Assembly: GCF_000447295.1 (NCBI RefSeq)
Contig: NZ_KE650771.1
Location: 2,075,533 to 2,126,373 of the forward strand
Source of the DNA: Fischerella sp. PCC 9431
GTDB taxonomy: Bacteria; Cyanobacteriota; Cyanobacteriia; Cyanobacteriales; Nostocaceae
Direction of reading: 5' to 3'
Length of the DNA: 50,841 bases
In this document: piece after piece, positions 1 through 7,740 of the stretch
Layout of the letters: each line of letters opens with the position of its first letter
Position numbering within the stretch: position 1 is the stretch's first letter
The notes under the pieces: model-generated
Database searches by the model: none
The model's input: only the letters and a program-made list of their open reading frames with translations
Told to the model about the DNA's origin: nothing
Program-made: the position numbers and the translations under genes

Positions 1-136
1 CTGTGTTACCGAAACCAGCAGCCGCACCATTTTGAGTCGCGTTTTGTTGGTTGCTTTGCACATCAGCCAAAGCCACACCAGGAGCAACCATCAAACCAGC
101 AGCCAGTAAACCGAAAGCAAAAGATTTCTTCAACAT
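1..136 (-). CDS. Small secreted N/Q-rich repeat protein, array copy A (partial, C-terminus outside window)
   Basis: Only the first 45 codons are present; the gene runs off the left edge. The start ATG (134-136) and the signal peptide (MLKKSFAFGLLAAGLMVAPG, ending VALA) match copies C and E. The mature part begins DVQSNQQNATQNGAAAGFGN, so this copy is the 'AAGFGN' type (type I), not the 'AVGVGN' type of its neighbour B. It is preceded by the shared AAAGGTCTAAAAAAATG ribosome-binding context. Function is unknown; see copy B for the family description. Confidence 0.85.
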   Translation of the reverse strand, partial: MLKKSFAFGLLAAGLMVAPGVALADVQSNQQNATQNGAAAGFGNT

Positions 137-240
137 TTTTTTAGACCTTTGTGTATTGTTTGTGTGTTGTTTGTATGTTGTGTGTTTTCTGTTGGGATGC
201 GCTCTTACTACCATCATCCCAATCCTGAACTCAATAAAGC

Positions 241-591
241 TTAGTAGCAGTTGTGGATACCGTTAGCGATTTCGGTTGCGTTTTGTAGAGCAGCTTGATT
301 ACCAACGTTAGCTACGGTGTTAGCAGTACCAACAGCAGCACCGTTTTGTGCGATATTTTGACCAGAAATTTGAGCGTTGTAGCTACCATGACAAGAAGCA
401 CCATTCTTAATCTTGGTGATACCTTGAATCGCTGTTTGGTTAGCGTTGTTGACAACTGTATTACCAACACCAACAGCAGCACCATTTTGAGTCGCGTTTT
501 GTTGGTTGCTTTGCACATCAGCCAAAGCCGCACCAGGAGCAACCATCAAACCAGCAGCCAGTAAACCGAAAGCAAAAGATTTCTTCAACAT
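241..591 (-). CDS. Small secreted N/Q-rich two-repeat protein, array copy B (type II)
   Basis: 116 aa. Residues 1-24 are a Sec signal peptide with a likely AxA cleavage site (ALA before DVQ), so the product is exported. The mature ~92 residues are two copies of a ~40-residue unit of pattern QNxxQNGAAVGxxNTVxN...Q...Q..T.I.NG, each ending near one cysteine (CHGS in the middle, CY at the end). This N/Q/G/A-rich composition with regularly spaced Q and N resembles curlin-type or other beta-solenoid/amyloid proteins, but the exact curlin consensus is not met. The start is fixed by AAAGG about 10 nt upstream of ATG and by conservation among the copies. Function is unknown; a surface or matrix fibre is an inference only. 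Confidence 0.85.
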   Translation of the reverse strand: MLKKSFAFGLLAAGLMVAPGAALADVQSNQQNATQNGAAVGVGNTVVNNANQTAIQGITKIKNGASCHGSYNAQISGQNIAQNGAAVGTANTVANVGNQAALQNATEIANGIHNCY

Positions 592-699
592 TTTTTTAGA
601 CCTTTGTGTATTGGGAGTTATTTGCGGATTGTGTGTTGTGATTTTTGATTGGGGATGAGTTAGTTGTCTATTGCATCATCCCTTGAGGCTCAATAAAAC

Positions 700-1050
700 T
701 TAGTAGCAGTTGTGGATACCGTTAGCAATTTCGGTTGCGTTTTGCAAAGCACCTTGACTAGCTTGGTTGGCTACGGTGTTAGCAGTACCAACAGCAGCAC
801 CATTTTGTGCAACATTTTGACCAGAGATTTGAGCGTTGTAGCTACCAGTACAAGAAGCACCATTCTTTATCTTGGTAATACCTTGAATCGCTGTTTGGTC
901 AGCGCTGTTGACAACTGTGTTACCGAAACCAGCAGCCGCACCATTTTGAGTCGCGTTTTGTTGGTTGCTTTGCACATCAGCCAAAGCCACACCAGGAGCA
1001 ACCATCAAACCAGCAGCCAGTAAACCGAAAGCAAAAGACTTCTTCAACAT
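700..1050 (-). CDS. Small secreted N/Q-rich two-repeat protein, array copy C (type I)
   Basis: 116 aa when started at ATG 1048-1050. An in-frame ATG 15 nt upstream (adding MRSKK) overlaps the conserved AGGTCTAAAAAAATG leader and is absent from the sister genes, so I reject it. Signal peptide, two QNGAAxG repeat units and two cysteines are as in copy B. It belongs to type I: AAGFGN in unit 1, SADQ, and CTGS rather than CHGS. The protein is identical to copy E over its whole length, although the two genes are separated by type II copy D. Confidence 0.85.
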   Translation of the reverse strand: MLKKSFAFGLLAAGLMVAPGVALADVQSNQQNATQNGAAAGFGNTVVNSADQTAIQGITKIKNGASCTGSYNAQISGQNVAQNGAAVGTANTVANQASQGALQNATEIANGIHNCY

Positions 1051-1108
1051 TTTTTTAGACCTCATTAATTGTGTGTGTTAGTTAGATAAATATTGTGTGT
1101 TGTGATTT

Positions 1109-1150
1109 TTGATTGGGGATGAGTTAGTTATCTATTGCATCATCCCTTGA
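1109..1150 (-). promoter_or_regulatory. Array spacer hairpin, second type
   Basis: Between copies D and C the coding strand has GGGATGA...TCATCCC, a 7-bp stem with a loop of about 17 nt, followed by CAATCAAAAATC. The spacer between C and B (592-699) repeats it almost exactly. Spacer types therefore run 1,2,2,1 along the array. Confidence 0.45.
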
Positions 1151-1163
1151 GGCTCAATAAAAC

Positions 1164-1514
1164 TTAGTAGCAGTTGTGGATACCGTTAGCAATTTCGGTT
1201 GCGTTTTGCAAAGCACCTTGGCTAGCTTGGTTGACTACGGTGTTAACTTCACCAACAGCAGCACCATTTTGTGCAACATTTTGACCAGAAATTTGAGCGT
1301 TGTAGCTACCATGACAAGAAGCACCATTCTTGATCTTGGTGATATCTTGGATATTTGTTTGAGTTGCGTCATTTACAACTGTGTTACCAACACCAACAGC
1401 CGCACCATTTTGAGTCGCATTTTGTTGGCTGTTTTGTACATCAGCCAAAGCTGCACCAGGAGCAACCATCAAACCAGCAGCCAGTAAACCGAAAGCAAAA
1501 GATTTTTTCAACAT
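1164..1514 (-). CDS. Small secreted N/Q-rich two-repeat protein, array copy D (type II)
   Basis: 116 aa with the same signal peptide (cleavage after ALA), two tandem ~40-residue QNGAAVG units and two cysteines. It shares AVGVGN and CHGS with copy B, hence type II. It is the most divergent copy, with DVQNSQQN, NDATQTNIQDITK and GEVNTVVNQ in place of the usual residues. The second half (NQASQGALQNATEIANGIHNCY region) matches copies C and E rather than B, which suggests recombination between copies. Function unknown. Confidence 0.85.
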   Translation of the reverse strand: MLKKSFAFGLLAAGLMVAPGAALADVQNSQQNATQNGAAVGVGNTVVNDATQTNIQDITKIKNGASCHGSYNAQISGQNVAQNGAAVGEVNTVVNQASQGALQNATEIANGIHNCY

Positions 1515-1527
1515 TTTTTTAGACCTT

Positions 1528-1596
1528 TGTGTGTTGTTTGTGTGTTGTGTGTTTTCAGTTGGGATGCGCTCTTACTACCATCATCCCAATCCTGAA
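1528..1596 (-). promoter_or_regulatory. Array spacer with hairpin and CA-rich leader
   Basis: Between copies E and D the coding strand carries TTGGGATG, a 15-nt loop and CATCCCAA, an 8-bp perfect stem, followed by a CA-rich leader to the next start codon. The spacer between B and A (137-240) is nearly the same. No U-run follows, so this may be a stability or partial-termination hairpin rather than a classical terminator. Confidence 0.5.
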
Positions 1597-1607
1597 CTCA
1601 ATAAAGC

Positions 1608-1958
1608 TTAGTAGCAGTTGTGGATACCGTTAGCAATTTCGGTTGCGTTTTGCAAAGCACCTTGGCTAGCTTGGTTGGCTACGGTGTTAGCAGTACCAAC
1701 AGCAGCACCATTTTGTGCAACATTTTGACCAGAGATTTGAGCGTTGTAGCTACCAGTACAAGAAGCACCATTCTTAATCTTGGTAATACCTTGAATCGCT
1801 GTTTGGTCAGCGCTGTTGACAACTGTGTTACCGAAACCCGCAGCCGCACCATTTTGAGTCGCGTTTTGCTGGTTGCTTTGCACATCAGCCAAAGCCACAC
1901 CAGGAGCAACCATCAAACCAGCAGCCAGTAAACCGAAAGCAAAAGATTTCTTCAACAT
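1608..1958 (-). CDS. Small secreted N/Q-rich two-repeat protein, array copy E (type I, promoter-proximal)
   Basis: 116 aa and the first gene of the minus-strand array, so it is closest to any array promoter in 1959-2482. Signal peptide to ALA, then two QNGAA(A/V)G units, CTGS in the middle and a terminal CY. Protein sequence is identical to copy C. A CA-rich leader (ACACACAACACACAAAC on the coding strand) precedes AAAGGTCTAAAAAAATG. Whether the five genes form one transcript is not shown by sequence; hairpins in every spacer would allow graded expression. Confidence 0.85.
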   Translation of the reverse strand: MLKKSFAFGLLAAGLMVAPGVALADVQSNQQNATQNGAAAGFGNTVVNSADQTAIQGITKIKNGASCTGSYNAQISGQNVAQNGAAVGTANTVANQASQGALQNATEIANGIHNCY

Positions 1959-2482
1959 TTTTTTAGACCTTTGTGTGTTGTTTGTGTGTTGTGTGTTTTT
2001 AGCTAGAGAATTTATACCTTTGACTCTTCGTTCGGTTATTTATTTTTGACCTCTAGAAGTTGTTTTTGGTTTCTCTGTCGCGTTTTTGTTTTGTTAATGA
2101 GAGCTACAAAGTCCAATTTCTCCATTCCGGATTCGTCTGAAAAATTTTTGGGAAAAAGTTTGCTTGGGCTTTGTCTACCTTTAGACATAAGGGGAAAACA
2201 GGCTAAGGATGAGAGACTAAAGTGAATTTGAAAAAGAGCTTTCAGATTCTCTAAGACTCATTTGCCAAAGCTTCCGTTCTTTAACTTTTACGTTCAATTT
2301 CTTGTCAAAGTTTATTTTGCAAGATATGTGAGGCGGTAGTCAACCTCATACTTAATATTTTTACCCAAAAAACTTGGGTGTAGTCAAGAGGTGAGTTAAA
2401 TTTTTTAGCCACTAAATTTTTTTGATGCCAGCTAGATTTTTTTGATGCTAGGATCTACGACTAAAGGTAAATCAAAAGTGCT
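1959..2482. other. Gene-free region upstream of the array and of the XRE regulator
   Basis: About 520 bp between divergent genes, so promoters in both directions are expected, but I cannot place -35/-10 boxes with confidence. Visible structure: a short inverted repeat ACCCAA(5 nt)TTGGGT at 2363-2379, and two direct copies of TA(A/G)ATTTTTTTGATGC(C/T)A at 2413-2430 and 2433-2450, just upstream of the regulator start. No ORF with convincing coding character was seen. Confidence 0.6.
2413..2450 (+). repeat. Tandem 20-bp-spaced direct repeat upstream of XRE regulator
   Basis: Two copies of an 18-bp motif (16/18 identical) lie 20 bp apart, i.e. about two helical turns, and end about 30 bp before the regulator's GTG. 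The position suits an operator for autoregulation, which is inference. Confidence 0.45.
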
Positions 2483-2830
2483 GTGAAACGGAAAGCAAAA
2501 CCAAACATCGCTTTTCTGCGGGAAAAAGCAGGGCTAACTCAGCTGGAATTATCGCGTCTTGTGGGCGTGACAGAAAGCACTATTCAAAATTGGGAAAGTG
2601 GTAGAACCGGGACAGAACAGATAGAAAGAATCATTAAGTTTTGTAAAGCACTCAATTGTCAAGTAGAAGATTTAATTGAGTATGCAAGCACATCGCAAGA
2701 GCCAGCAACCAAGCCTAGTTCCCTGAGCGATATACATAATATGTTGGGGACAGATGAACCTTCATCAACTTCCAGTCCCGATACACAAAATGATCAACAA
2801 TGGGAAGAGTCAAAAGTTAAGGGTCAATAG
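2483..2830 (+). CDS. XRE/Cro-C1-type HTH transcriptional regulator
   Basis: 115 aa from a GTG start. Residues ~7-65 form a typical Cro/C1 helix-turn-helix: LREKAGLTQLELSRLVGVTE with the recognition helix STIQNWESGR, ending in LNCQVEDLIEY. The remaining ~50 residues are S/T/Q-rich and probably disordered. It is divergent from the secreted-protein array and could regulate it or itself, but only adjacency supports this. The gene is followed by TGATAACT-like short repeats (about 2850-2930) before the convergent deacetylase gene. Confidence 0.8.
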   Translation: MKRKAKPNIAFLREKAGLTQLELSRLVGVTESTIQNWESGRTGTEQIERIIKFCKALNCQVEDLIEYASTSQEPATKPSSLSDIHNMLGTDEPSSTSSPDTQNDQQWEESKVKGQ

Positions 2831-2933: not shown

Positions 2934-3617
2934 CTAAAGTTTTAATTCCAGAGTTTGCTGCCACAATGTGTCTATAGTTACAAAGTGATAACCTTGCTGA
3001 AGTAATTTGGGGATAAGTAAATTAGTAATTTCTGCGACATCTTCTCCGCCGCAAACACCATCATGCAAAACGATAATAGAGCCGCTTTTGACTTGTTGTA
3101 GAACTCGCTGTACTACGGTGTTGACTCCGGGTCGTACCCAATCTTCTGGTACTACAGTCCACATTACAGAACGGTAATTCCACTGTTGTAGTAGGTTTAA
3201 AGTTTGAGGTGTAAATAAACCATTGGGAGGTCTGACATCACGCACTTGTGTTGGTTGCAGTTCGCAAGCATCATAAATGACAGCTTGAGTTCTTTCTAGA
3301 CTGTCTTTGAGTTCATCAGGCGAGAGCAGAGGAAAATTATGATGATAGTAACCGTGCAGCCCGATCCAATGTCCGCGATCGCACACTTCTTTTGCCAAAC
3401 TAGGCGAACGTTTGACACAAGCACCCAACCAAAAAAAATTTGCTGTCACTTGGTAACGATCTAAAACTTCTAATAGTCGGGGTGTGTATTGCGGATGAGG
3501 ACCATCATCAAACGATAGAGCGATCGCTTGAGAATTGCACTCACCCCCCCAAAGACAACTGGGAAAAGTTGGTTTCAGAATGGGGTGTAAAAGCGGAAAT
3601 AGAGGATAAAGCTGCAT
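2934..3617 (-). CDS. Polysaccharide deacetylase (NodB homology, carbohydrate esterase 4)
   Basis: 227 aa. CE4 motifs are visible in order: motif 1 SFDDGP (~residues 35-40) with the catalytic Asp pair; motif 2 HGYYH with the H-x3-H zinc ligands; motif 3 RPPNG (usually RPPYG); PEDW as the motif 4 region; and LHDG as motif 5 with the catalytic His. The family removes N- or O-acetyl groups from peptidoglycan, chitin-like or exopolysaccharide substrates. No clear signal peptide is seen; the first ~25 residues are proline-rich and weakly hydrophobic, so location is uncertain. It stands alone, convergent with the XRE gene. Confidence 0.88.
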   Translation of the reverse strand: MQLYPLFPLLHPILKPTFPSCLWGGECNSQAIALSFDDGPHPQYTPRLLEVLDRYQVTANFFWLGACVKRSPSLAKEVCDRGHWIGLHGYYHHNFPLLSPDELKDSLERTQAVIYDACELQPTQVRDVRPPNGLFTPQTLNLLQQWNYRSVMWTVVPEDWVRPGVNTVVQRVLQQVKSGSIIVLHDGVCGGEDVAEITNLLIPKLLQQGYHFVTIDTLWQQTLELKL

Positions 3618-3865: not shown

Positions 3866-4750
3866 ATGCTGTTCAAAGGTATACAAGATATTCGCGATTA
3901 TCAAATTCTTTTTCTGTCTTTGTTTTTGGTACTGGGAATTGGTACAAGAGATTGGACATTACGACCAGAGTTGATTGTTGTCGTCATAGTTACCTGTTTG
4001 TCAACACAATGGTTCTTGTCATTGGTCGTTGGTCGGTTAACAAAATTTATTGATCAAGAACAAAGGACAAATGACAAGGGACAAATAATCAATTTTCGCA
4101 GTCCTTTAATTACTGCTTTGGGACTTAGCTTATTGTTGCGGGCTGACCATTGGACGACAATGGTTTTTGCAGCAGTGGTTGCGATCGCCAGTAAATTTGT
4201 TTTCAAAATAGGCGATAAACATTTTTTCAACCCTGCGAATTTTGGTATTATCTCGGCTTTAATACTGACTCCCGATGCTTGGGTTTCGCCGGGACAGTGG
4301 GGTGAAGATTGGTGGTATGGGTTGTTATTTGCTGGGACTGGTGGTTTGATTCTCAAAAAAGTCGGACGTTGGGATACGACAGCTGCTTTTTTGGGTGCAT
4401 ATGCTGTCTTAGAAGCAATTCGTAATTTTTATTTGGGTTGGACTTGGGATGTTTATTGTCACCGCTTAATGAGCGGATCTTTGTTACTGTTTGCCTTATT
4501 TATGGTGACAGATCCGCGCTCAATTCCCAACGCTCGTATAGCGCGTGTAGTTTGGGCAATATGCATCGCCATATTAACTTTCATTTTACGAAATAATTTC
4601 TTTCTCTCTACTGCTGTTTTCTGGGCATTATTTACCCTAGCGCCTTTGACGGTGCTACTAGATGTGATTTGGGAAGCACCTCGTTTTGGGTGGAGATTGG
4701 GGAACGGGGATCGGGGATCGGGGATCGGGGAAAAGGGAACAAGTTCTTAA
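3866..4750 (+). CDS. RnfD/NqrB-like integral membrane protein
   Basis: 294 aa with about nine hydrophobic segments. Family marks are FFNPANFGI (~residues 120-128) and the SGSLLLFALFMVTDPRSIP stretch (~205-223), which resemble subunit D of RnfABCDGE and NqrB of Na+-NQR, the membrane subunits that carry covalent flavin. No other Rnf subunits are near, so a complete Rnf complex is not implied. The last ~18 residues (GNGDRGSGIGEKGTSS) are encoded by the G-rich repeat that begins about 4694, so the native C-terminus has been replaced or extended. The next gene, a DUF2330 protein, is co-directional 160 bp downstream. Confidence 0.75.
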   Translation: MLFKGIQDIRDYQILFLSLFLVLGIGTRDWTLRPELIVVVIVTCLSTQWFLSLVVGRLTKFIDQEQRTNDKGQIINFRSPLITALGLSLLLRADHWTTMVFAAVVAIASKFVFKIGDKHFFNPANFGIISALILTPDAWVSPGQWGEDWWYGLLFAGTGGLILKKVGRWDTTAAFLGAYAVLEAIRNFYLGWTWDVYCHRLMSGSLLLFALFMVTDPRSIPNARIARVVWAICIAILTFILRNNFFLSTAVFWALFTLAPLTVLLDVIWEAPRFGWRLGNGDRGSGIGEKGTSS

Positions 4751-4880
4751 ATTTTGAATTTTGTACGCCCTTGGCGTTCCCGAAGGGTATTTTGAATTGT
4801 TTTGTCCTCCATGTCCCCTTTCGCTTGTCCCGATCCCCAATCCCCGATCCCCAATCCCCAATCCCCTATCCCCGTTCCGA
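4694..4880. repeat. G-rich/C-rich heptamer repeat element (STRR-like), copy 1
   Basis: A G-rich arm (repeated GGGGATC/GGGGAAC, 4694-4740) and a C-rich arm (CCCCAATCCCCGATCC type, 4835-4875) flank a core at about 4743-4815. The core's reverse complement (ACAAAACAATTCAAAATACC followed by a GGGAA...TACAAAATT stretch) recurs at 6336-6392 and, partly, at 30285-30325. The arms could pair into a long imperfect hairpin. It supplies the stop codon and last codons of the RnfD-like gene. Confidence 0.7.
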
Positions 4881-4911
4881 ATTTTTGCTTAATCACTTAA
4901 AAACTAAAATT

Positions 4912-6279
4912 ATGAAACACTTAAAATTCTTGATTTCGTTAGTGCTGATATTGGCGGTTGTATTTTGTTTTGCACCTACAGCTTGGGCTTTTTGCGGTTT
5001 TTATGTTGCGAAGGCGGATACGAAATTATATAACAAGGCTTCGCAGGTGGCGATCGCACATAGTGGTGATCGGACTGTGTTGACAATGGCTAATGATTAT
5101 CAAGGTGATGTGAAAGATTTTGCGATCGTTGTACCAGTACCTACTGTTATCCAAAAAGAACAGGTACGTGTTGGCAATCCTAAAATTATCGAACGTTTGG
5201 ATGCTTTTAGCGCCCCACGATTGGTAGAGTATTATGATTCTGATCCTTGTGAGCCTTTATATGATCGAGTTATGCTGCAAGCTGCGCCAGCACCATCAGC
5301 AGAAAGTCAGGGACAGAGAAGAAACAGCAATCAGAATTTGGGTGTAACTGTTGAAGCACGGTTTAATGTTGGTGAATACGATATTGTCATTTTGAGTGCG
5401 AAAGAATCGGGCGGATTGGAAACGTGGCTAATTCGCAACGGTTACAAAATTCCTAGAGGGGCGAAACAGTTACTTAAACCCTACATTCGCCAAAAGATGA
5501 AGTTTTTTGTGGCTAAAGTCAATCTAGAAAAGTTTGACCAGACGGGCTATCAAAACTTGCGTCCCTTGCAAATATCTTACCAGTCGCCCAAATTCATGTT
5601 GCCAATTCGTTTGGGTATGATCAATGCTGCAACAGACCAAGATTTAATAGTTTATATTCTTTCGCCGAAAGGACAAGCAGAACTTACCAACTACCGCACT
5701 GTCAAAGTTCCTTCTGATGCGAATATCCCCTTGTTTGTCAAAAATGAATTTGGCGAATTTTATAAATCCATGTTCCAAACTGCTTACACCAAAGAAGACC
5801 GGAAAGTAGGATTTTTAGAATACGCTTGGGATATGGGTAGTTGTGATCCCTGTTCTGCTGAACCGCTAAACTCGGAAGAACTCAAAGAAGCAGGGGTCTT
5901 TTGGTTAAATGATTTCCCTCCAAATATTAATCAGTCAGCACCTTTTCGTCCTTCTCCTGTTTCCAACAACGTTTTTATTACTCGTCTCCACATCCGCTAC
6001 ACCCGCGACAAATTTCCCGAAGATTTAGTTTTCCAAGAAACATCTAACCGTGAAAACTTCCAAGGACGTTATATTTTGCAACATCCCTTTACAGGTGAAG
6101 CAAAGTGTCAAGCAGGGAGAGAATACAAAGGATCTTTAGGAAAACGCTTTGAACAAGAAGCACAAACCCTTGCTAAATTAACCAATTGGAATATTCAAGA
6201 TATCCGTAAAAAAATGAACCTCAACGGTCAGGTTAGTGTTTCTTGGTGGCGAGTGCTTCTTTCTTGGATCGGATTGTAG
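4912..6279 (+). CDS. DUF2330 domain protein, exported
   Basis: 455 aa from ATG 4912, chosen because the 80 codons upstream in frame are translated repeat DNA and because a clear signal peptide starts here (MKHLKFLISLVLILAVVFCF, with cleavage near TAWAF). The mature start CGFYVAKADTKLYNKASQVA and the phrase DFAIVVPVPT are typical of DUF2330, a family of unknown function. The C-terminus (WWRVLLSWIGL) is hydrophobic and may anchor the protein. It is flanked by inverted copies of the G/C-rich repeat. Pairing with the RnfD-like gene suggests a shared periplasmic or membrane redox role, which is inference. Confidence 0.82.
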   Translation: MKHLKFLISLVLILAVVFCFAPTAWAFCGFYVAKADTKLYNKASQVAIAHSGDRTVLTMANDYQGDVKDFAIVVPVPTVIQKEQVRVGNPKIIERLDAFSAPRLVEYYDSDPCEPLYDRVMLQAAPAPSAESQGQRRNSNQNLGVTVEARFNVGEYDIVILSAKESGGLETWLIRNGYKIPRGAKQLLKPYIRQKMKFFVAKVNLEKFDQTGYQNLRPLQISYQSPKFMLPIRLGMINAATDQDLIVYILSPKGQAELTNYRTVKVPSDANIPLFVKNEFGEFYKSMFQTAYTKEDRKVGFLEYAWDMGSCDPCSAEPLNSEELKEAGVFWLNDFPPNINQSAPFRPSPVSNNVFITRLHIRYTRDKFPEDLVFQETSNRENFQGRYILQHPFTGEAKCQAGREYKGSLGKRFEQEAQTLAKLTNWNIQDIRKKMNLNGQVSVSWWRVLLSWIGL

Positions 6280-6283
6280 TTTA

Positions 6284-6435
6284 ATTGGGGATCGGGCATC
6301 GGGGAAAGGGGAAAGGGGACAAGGAAGACAAGGGGGACAAAACAATTCAAAATACCCTACGGGAAGGCTTGCGCCTACAAAATTTCAGAACTTGTTTCCC
6401 TATCCCGGTTCCCTTTTCCCCGTTCCCCGTTTCCG
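6284..6435. repeat. G-rich/C-rich heptamer repeat element, copy 2 (inverted core relative to copy 1)
   Basis: Starts 5 bp after the DUF2330 stop. It has a G-rich arm (GGGGATCGGGCATCGGGGAA type), then the core GACAAAACAATTCAAAATAC with CGGGAAGGCTTGCGCCTACA, then a C-rich arm ending at CCCCGTTTCC. The core is the reverse complement of that in 4743-4815, so the two copies bracket the DUF2330 gene in inverted orientation. Confidence 0.7.
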
Positions 6436-6496
6436 ATATTAAATGCCAATTCTACGCAATACTTAGAAAAGGCTTGTTGTGTTCCTGAAAAGTATT

Positions 6497-7320: not shown

Positions 7321-7466
7321 TAAATATTTTGGCAATAGCTAAACTCAGATAAATTTGACTAGGAAAGTGTTTATGACCCCAAATTTAACTTGAGCTTAAT
7401 TCTTAAAGTAGAGTTAAGTAATAATTAAAAAGGCATATACTACAATTACCAAGCAAGAATTATTTC

Positions 7467-7501
7467 AGCCCCTAGTCTTATAAGTACTAGGAGCTTTTTT
7501 T
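7467..7501 (+). terminator. Intrinsic terminator without an obvious gene
   Basis: AGC-C-CCTAGT, a 9-nt loop and ACTAGG-A-GCT form a 9-bp stem with one internal mismatch, followed directly by eight U residues (TTTTTTT and beyond). This is a good Rho-independent terminator on the plus strand. The nearest upstream gene ends at 7132, with a MITE in between. Confidence 0.7.
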
Positions 7502-7740
7502 AATTGATTGTCTATTTCAAATCAGCCATTCACGAGAAAATCTCTCTAAGTAAAATGAGAATAAGACTCCTCCTACACCCCTACACCCTCTTTGAAGTCA
7601 GACGTATATCTAAAGAAATGACAGCGATTGAAGTATTACTTTCGGCTAATTAATAGTTAATTCTGTTGGTAGATTGGATATCTTAGTTGAGACTGTTAAT
7701 GTGTACTTGTTACTAAAAAACGTTTACCAAATACAAAACA

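Follow-up and report, generated by a model that had tools for sequence, protein, structure and literature searches.

The described systems closest to the locus analyzed here are curli (CsgA/CsgB, csg operons), Fap (FapB/FapC), and the EbfG proteins of Synechococcus elongatus. QX10Q is named as the curli motif in the part of PMC12822426 available to us. EbfG1-4 of S. elongatus are small secreted proteins from one operon; EbfG1-3 form amyloid, EbfG4 is found on the cell surface, and secretion involves the C39 peptidase-transporter PteB, as described in the accessible sections of PMC9981879. The available parts of the curli/Fap papers PMC12822426 and PMC3521004 name no fiber of the kind considered here for cyanobacteria: the word stem "cyanobacteri" does not occur in the former, and the latter carries it once, in a sample name. 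In the open-access papers searched, no title or opening of an abstract describes this locus. We analyzed a window of 50,841 nucleotides of DNA from Fischerella sp. PCC 9431, at the left end of which lies a tandem array of small genes. We somewhat favor reading this array as the amplified major-subunit part of a locus for a secreted, functional-amyloid-like fiber, in which like copies are homogenized and alternation of copy types is no general requirement. This reading rests on the repeat of the array proteins, a motif within it, co-occurrence with partner genes, a separate distal class of copies, and homogenization of the others.

The window holds four whole genes and the start of a fifth, in tandem on the minus strand, with the promoter side to the right, beyond copy E. 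Copies B, C, D, and E comprise 351 nt and encode 116 amino acids each. Copy E (1608..1958), the first from the promoter side, is of type I and specifies a Sec-like leader ending in ALA (by eye), two 47-residue repeats, and two Cys. It is followed by D (1164..1514, type II), C (700..1050, type I), B (241..591, type II), and the 136-nt 5' part of A (1..136, type I). C and E carry the motifs AAGFGN/CTGS, and B and D carry AVGVGN/CHGS; A shows AAGFGN only, its CxGS stretch being hidden by an assembly gap. The spacers are of type 1 between E and D (1515..1607), type 2 between D and C (1051..1163) and between C and B (592..699), and type 1 between B and A (137..240), which by eye is the order 1,2,2,1 claimed originally. 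The gap, 98 N at 7436-7533 of the neighboring stretch (L004), lies inside copy A, and the window begins directly after it. Together with the 98 N, the known ends of A come to 350 nt, one less than its complete neighbors (351), so a single copy is the simplest reading of the gap, which could nonetheless hide extra units.

Extension to the left, proposed as a check of the array, showed that it continues, yet with members that fit neither type. Beyond A, outside the window (L004), lie F, G, H, I, J, and K in turn. F is of a third type (AVGTAN/CQTTFN), and G, which begins MFSKVK, is a diverged last array member; the beginning of the spacer between A and F resembles type 2. Past K, on the opposite strand, there is a gene that we take to be MltA-like. 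An open frame of SPLSPLSPL units, a simple DNA repeat, also runs on the opposite strand and overlaps the 3' end of K (L004 3754-4140). In the window, 4669-4900 and 6240-6440 contain repeats whose translation reads GIGDRGSGIGDRG and similar, presumably akin to cyanobacterial heptamer repeats.

The original prediction spoke of five nearly identical genes of types I-II-I-II-I. The alternation of motifs was confirmed (for A by AAGFGN only), but near identity is limited to A, C, and E, with three to five differences. Of the 252 known sites of A, 3 are not as in E. C and E, separated by D, do encode the same protein, and their 351 nt differ at five third-codon sites, all silent. B and D are distinct copies: 39 of 351 nt differ between them, compared with 35/351 between D and E and 28/351 between B and E. 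Since B and D are farther from each other than either is from type I, type II is not one group. What the two types capture is thus two short motifs; by nucleotide distance, the array consists of A, C, and E, which are almost the same, interrupted by the distinct copies B and D.

Comparison with Fischerella muscicola SAG 1427-1 suggested how the like copies stay alike. Type-I copies within one genome, in both of these close species, differ by 3/252, 5/351, or 8/351 nt. Between the species, positional orthologues are 22/351 (E) and 16/252 (A) apart, much like the single genes beside the array, at 20/351 (F) and 12/345 (G). D and B are closest to their own positional orthologues in SAG 1427-1 (16/279 and 9/204, respectively). 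Distances within a genome that are so much smaller than those between species argue that like copies evolve in concert, whether by gene conversion or by unequal crossing-over. The predicted duplication plus gene conversion thus gained support, with unequal crossing-over also compatible. Exchange of this sort within the genome would account for C and E being identical despite D between them.

Concerted evolution is also evident from a tree built with 84 array proteins (95-145 amino acids) of 16 loci, which excluded copy A (N run) and loci L025-L032, L075, and L076. In this tree, the nearest tip of 57 of the 68 upstream copies belongs to their own genome, whereas 15 of the 16 distal copies are nearest to the distal copy of another genome. 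The tree topology indicates that the true two-class division is between the upstream copies and the distal copy. The idea of a fiber of two subunits may therefore be right with another pair, namely the amplified upstream copies and the conserved distal copy that lies outside the window. The one exception among the distal copies is L128 (2756-7500), where the last copy is almost the same as the others; it is the sole locus of the 16 without a distinct distal member, and its I gene is flanked by two H-like genes.

Whether the alternation has a meaning was judged from relatives. One scan returned 12 named loci of relatives: two in F. muscicola SAG 1427-1, two in F. muscicola PCC 7414, one each in F. 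thermalis PCC 7521, Pelatocladus, Westiellopsis, and Chlorogloeopsis, and four in Calothrix. In SAG 1427-1, types I and II are followed by a contig break and then by II, I, F, and G; the copies on either side of the break are separate genes, since 11 of their 132 shared sites differ. Because this order is compatible with that of PCC 9431 and D and B are kept as positional orthologues, the order predates the split of these two species, which speaks against a pure accident. Retention of D and B, with the I copies homogenized around them, could speak for types I and II as obligate partner subunits in a fixed ratio, their order being kept by selection. We nevertheless consider such a functional alternation very unlikely. 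In genome G061, six of whose seven profile matches sit in one locus (L064), a stretch without N reads AVGVGN, AAGFGN, AAGFGN, AAGFGN, F, G, i.e., II-I-I-I. In PCC 7414, the two upstream copies known are both AVGVGN/CSGS, and AVGVGN also occurs in the single known upstream copy of Pelatocladus and in the partial one of PCC 7521. Directly behind the first mature Cys, the four copies seen in SAG 1427-1 all have R, where both of PCC 7414 have S; B and D, as shown above, are not one type.

Comparison of orthologous loci thus yielded a compatible order in SAG 1427-1, against II-I-I-I in G061 and AVGVGN in the two known upstream copies of PCC 7414; the latter two leave unsupported the suggestion that strict alternation reflects a need for both types together. 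Three copies of type I and two of type II can be arranged in ten orders, one of which alternates, so alternation by itself is weak evidence. As far as the compared loci go, the order is common to two close species at four comparable positions and is absent from G061. The alternation itself is ordinary, and the copy distances make it seem for the most part a side effect of one copy being overwritten by another. The order might also be an artifact, near-identical units having been collapsed or shuffled by short-read assembly. The 98-N gap within copy A would fit this, as would the contig ends or N runs within the array in Westiellopsis, Pelatocladus, SAG 1427-1, PCC 7414, and PCC 7521, this array being a place where draft assemblies are prone to break. 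However, units B to E differ in spacers and silent sites, D and B can be paired with positional orthologues in SAG 1427-1, and the N-free stretch of G061 has four units before F, which together render an artifact highly improbable. The order is better regarded as a pattern that two close species have in common and that exchange between like copies sustains.

The array proteins themselves combine a leader with a repeat. The leader ends in AxA in 34 of 34 aligned members, which suggests the Sec route. In the mature part of copy E, the two repeats are offset by 47 residues with 21 of 44 residues identical, a match equaled in none of 5,000 shuffles over offsets of 35-55. The 92 mature residues of E include 12 Q, 14 N, and 5 charged residues. 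Imperfect Gln/Asn-rich repeats, a feature of functional amyloids, are thus present. Across the 34 aligned members, Q27, Q56, Q74, and C67 are invariant, and Q103 is kept in 33. The motif Q-x5-G-x2-N-x7-Q occurs 36 times in these members (19 carry it and 15 do not), compared with a shuffle mean of 0.7, twice in each of B, C, D, and E, and in 11 of 12 distant proteins; it was chosen by eye from members that partly overlap those counted, and these counts are therefore not an independent test. At 34 loci, 455 frames read on the strand upstream of I include 35 with at least two copies of the motif, versus 1 of 1,475 frames elsewhere; that lone frame overlaps I and is a subunit gene itself. By locus, the genes upstream of I include a two-motif gene in 19, a one-motif gene in 7, and neither in 8.

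An AlphaFold model of the subunit (34 sequences; mean pLDDT 62.7, pTM 0.44), of low-to-moderate confidence, places four strands of 17-19 residues at 26-42, 45-63, 73-89, and 92-110. A Foldseek search of 350,542 chains with this model returned FapC, FapC, and a CsgA fibril first, at values that are not significant (E 0.09-1.2, TM 0.10-0.15), with ice-binding solenoids further down the same list. Searches of array members against Pfam, NCBIfam, and PDB sequences gave nothing above the cut-offs. The solenoids among the weak structural matches, the near identity of the copies, and the scarcity of charge (5 of 92 residues in E) would also suit plain dosage of an abundant secreted protein that does not polymerize, e.g., a surface or carbohydrate-binding beta solenoid, whose copies conversion keeps alike. 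We regard this explanation as rather unlikely, because the conserved partner genes, the Gln/Asn-rich repeats, and the separate conserved distal member fit an assembled fiber better.

Partner genes accompany the array across genomes. Among 192 sampled genomes of the family, the array-protein profile has a match in 69, the I profile in 79, and the J profile in 70, although absences may be over-counted, since many genomes had their first-look candidates scored in part (for example, 23 of 31 with the array profile in PCC 9431). All 69 array genomes carry I and 56 carry J; 13 array genomes are without J, and 14 J genomes and 10 I genomes are without a detected array. This co-occurrence is counted per genome and not per locus (the I match of G126 sits at another locus), and its Fisher values are overstated, as genomes are not independent. 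At three of four array-negative, I-positive loci, a two-motif gene lies about 0.5 kb upstream of I. Class-wide, I-type genes are present in 42 of 388 sampled genomes. At 11 class-wide I loci, a Gln/Asn-rich repeat protein was found by eye beside I in every case, 10 of them with an array-profile match (E up to 0.05).

Pfam returned nothing above cut-off for H, I, J, or G and a single match for K, below cut-off (Nuf2-like, 18.4 bits versus 28.4), the end of K resembling a coiled coil by eye; 17 I proteins had scattered weak family matches only. J, modeled from the Westiellopsis orthologue with six sequences, is confidently predicted as a beta sandwich of nine strands, with ten-residue pLDDT means of 83-96 from residue 61. 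The model is closest to FnIII-like modules (best E 0.006, with no match at or below 0.001).

On its promoter side, the array is separated by a divergent intergenic region (1959..2482) from an XRE-type helix-turn-helix (HTH) gene on the plus strand (2483..2830; Pfam HTH_3, 4.7e-12). A 38-base block on the minus strand (2082..2119), identical in six aligned intergenic regions and some 120 bases ahead of the first start codon, is a candidate promoter core or regulator site. Next to the HTH gene, a gene that we take to specify a polysaccharide deacetylase (2934..3617, minus strand) forms a flank of conserved position. The HTH gene lies divergently beside the array at 15 of 22 loci examined; of the other seven, six are cut off by a contig end within the array, and L077 spans a single kilobase that has no array. 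An HTH match (E up to 1e-12) occurs in 127 of 192 genomes and in 63 of 69 array genomes, leaving 6 of 69 without. Control of the array probably falls to the product of this divergent HTH gene, our candidate regulator.

In 20 loci centered on the HTH gene, a chosen sample mostly from array-negative genomes, the array, H, I, and J were all found in 3 (G052, G111, G019) and none of them in 17, including loci of two genomes with family genes elsewhere (G028, G135) and one with I elsewhere (G082). These genes thus tend to be gained or lost together. Since the HTH gene is kept without the array, the regulator may have another target. In L110-L125 and L129, where it persists in this way, a deacetylase-like neighbor does so too in 15 of 17. 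Secondary family loci (L133-L136, of G135, G028, G115, and G049) had no HTH match; in G049, an array with I is present as two adjacent, near-identical units.

Spacers might add further signals. In the E-to-D spacer, a hairpin predicted after the stop codon (z -1.4, no stronger than in shuffles) is followed by an ACACA-rich leader and by AGGTCTA before the ATG. The leader recurs in 63 of 82 spacers, distant genomes included, versus a shuffle mean of 38 and maximum of 46. Hairpin z-scores fall below -2 in 36 of 82 spacers, and those of the six PCC 9431 spacers reach only -0.7 to -1.7; hairpins were thus set aside as a regulatory signal. The ACACA leader is better supported than the hairpins. Rfam at gathering scores gave no match in the window or L004.

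On the fiber reading, the 116-residue array proteins, put under control of the HTH protein, would be exported via the Sec-like leader. In the low-to-moderate-confidence model, each 47-residue repeat consists of two long beta strands that meet near a conserved G-x-G-N turn and carries invariant Gln; subunits would stack outside the cell into a functional-amyloid-like beta fiber. The conserved distal G and I, with its conserved Cys and Gln, are the best candidates for a starter or cap, and J, with its predicted FnIII/Ig-like domain, is a candidate chaperone or anchor. Upstream copies would have been multiplied for dosage and kept alike within the genome by gene conversion or unequal crossing-over. 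We identified no outer-membrane exporter for the array. More tentatively, and as a proposal that could well go either way, cyanobacteria may own a class of extracellular beta-fiber system with no detectable sequence kinship to curli/Fap, consisting of Q-x5-G-x2-N-x7-Q arch-repeat subunits, a constant I, usually an FnIII-like J, K, homogenized arrays in Nostocaceae-type lineages, and an exporter yet to be found. If right, this would provide a defined candidate protein matrix fiber for the many cyanobacteria with I-type genes, and the locus would offer a natural experiment in the homogenization of tandem copies while one distal copy stays apart.

Measured against curli, the locus is, by its sequence features, not a member and would work like curli at most, since the curlin repeat and CsgG were not found and the QX10Q spacing is depleted. 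The curlin repeat (PF07012) has no match in the PCC 9431 genome at E up to 10, with a positive E. coli control, and the curlin family none in the 34 aligned members (E up to 0.1) or in nine distant members (E up to 10). QX10Q is depleted, with 13 occurrences in the 34 members against a shuffle mean of 46.5; the array proteins have instead a repeat length of 47 and Q-x5-G-x2-N-x7-Q. CsgG is absent from the PCC 9431 genome (E up to 0.001). As an exporter of the array it was rejected for lack of association, PF03783 being present in 14 of the 69 genomes with the array and in 24 of the 123 without. The likenesses to curli are of another order: small Gln/Asn-rich repeat proteins, secreted in curli and predicted so here; homologous subunit copies beside accessory genes; units predicted to run strand-turn-strand; a regulator gene in divergent orientation, a candidate here; and a small Ig-like accessory protein, CsgC in curli and, by prediction, J here.

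For Fap, the 34-member profile found nothing among PDB sequences, FapC included, at E up to 10. FapC is the first, nonsignificant structural match of the array model, and its conserved Asn/Gln and long inter-repeat loops, as given in the available part of PMC12822426, can be likened to the array proteins. Unlike these, with two repeats, FapB/FapC have almost always three according to the same part of that source (PMC12822426). In contrast to the PteB-linked secretion of EbfG1-4, the leader of the array proteins looks Sec-like; by description only, the two resemble each other, EbfG1-4 being four small secreted cyanobacterial proteins from one operon.
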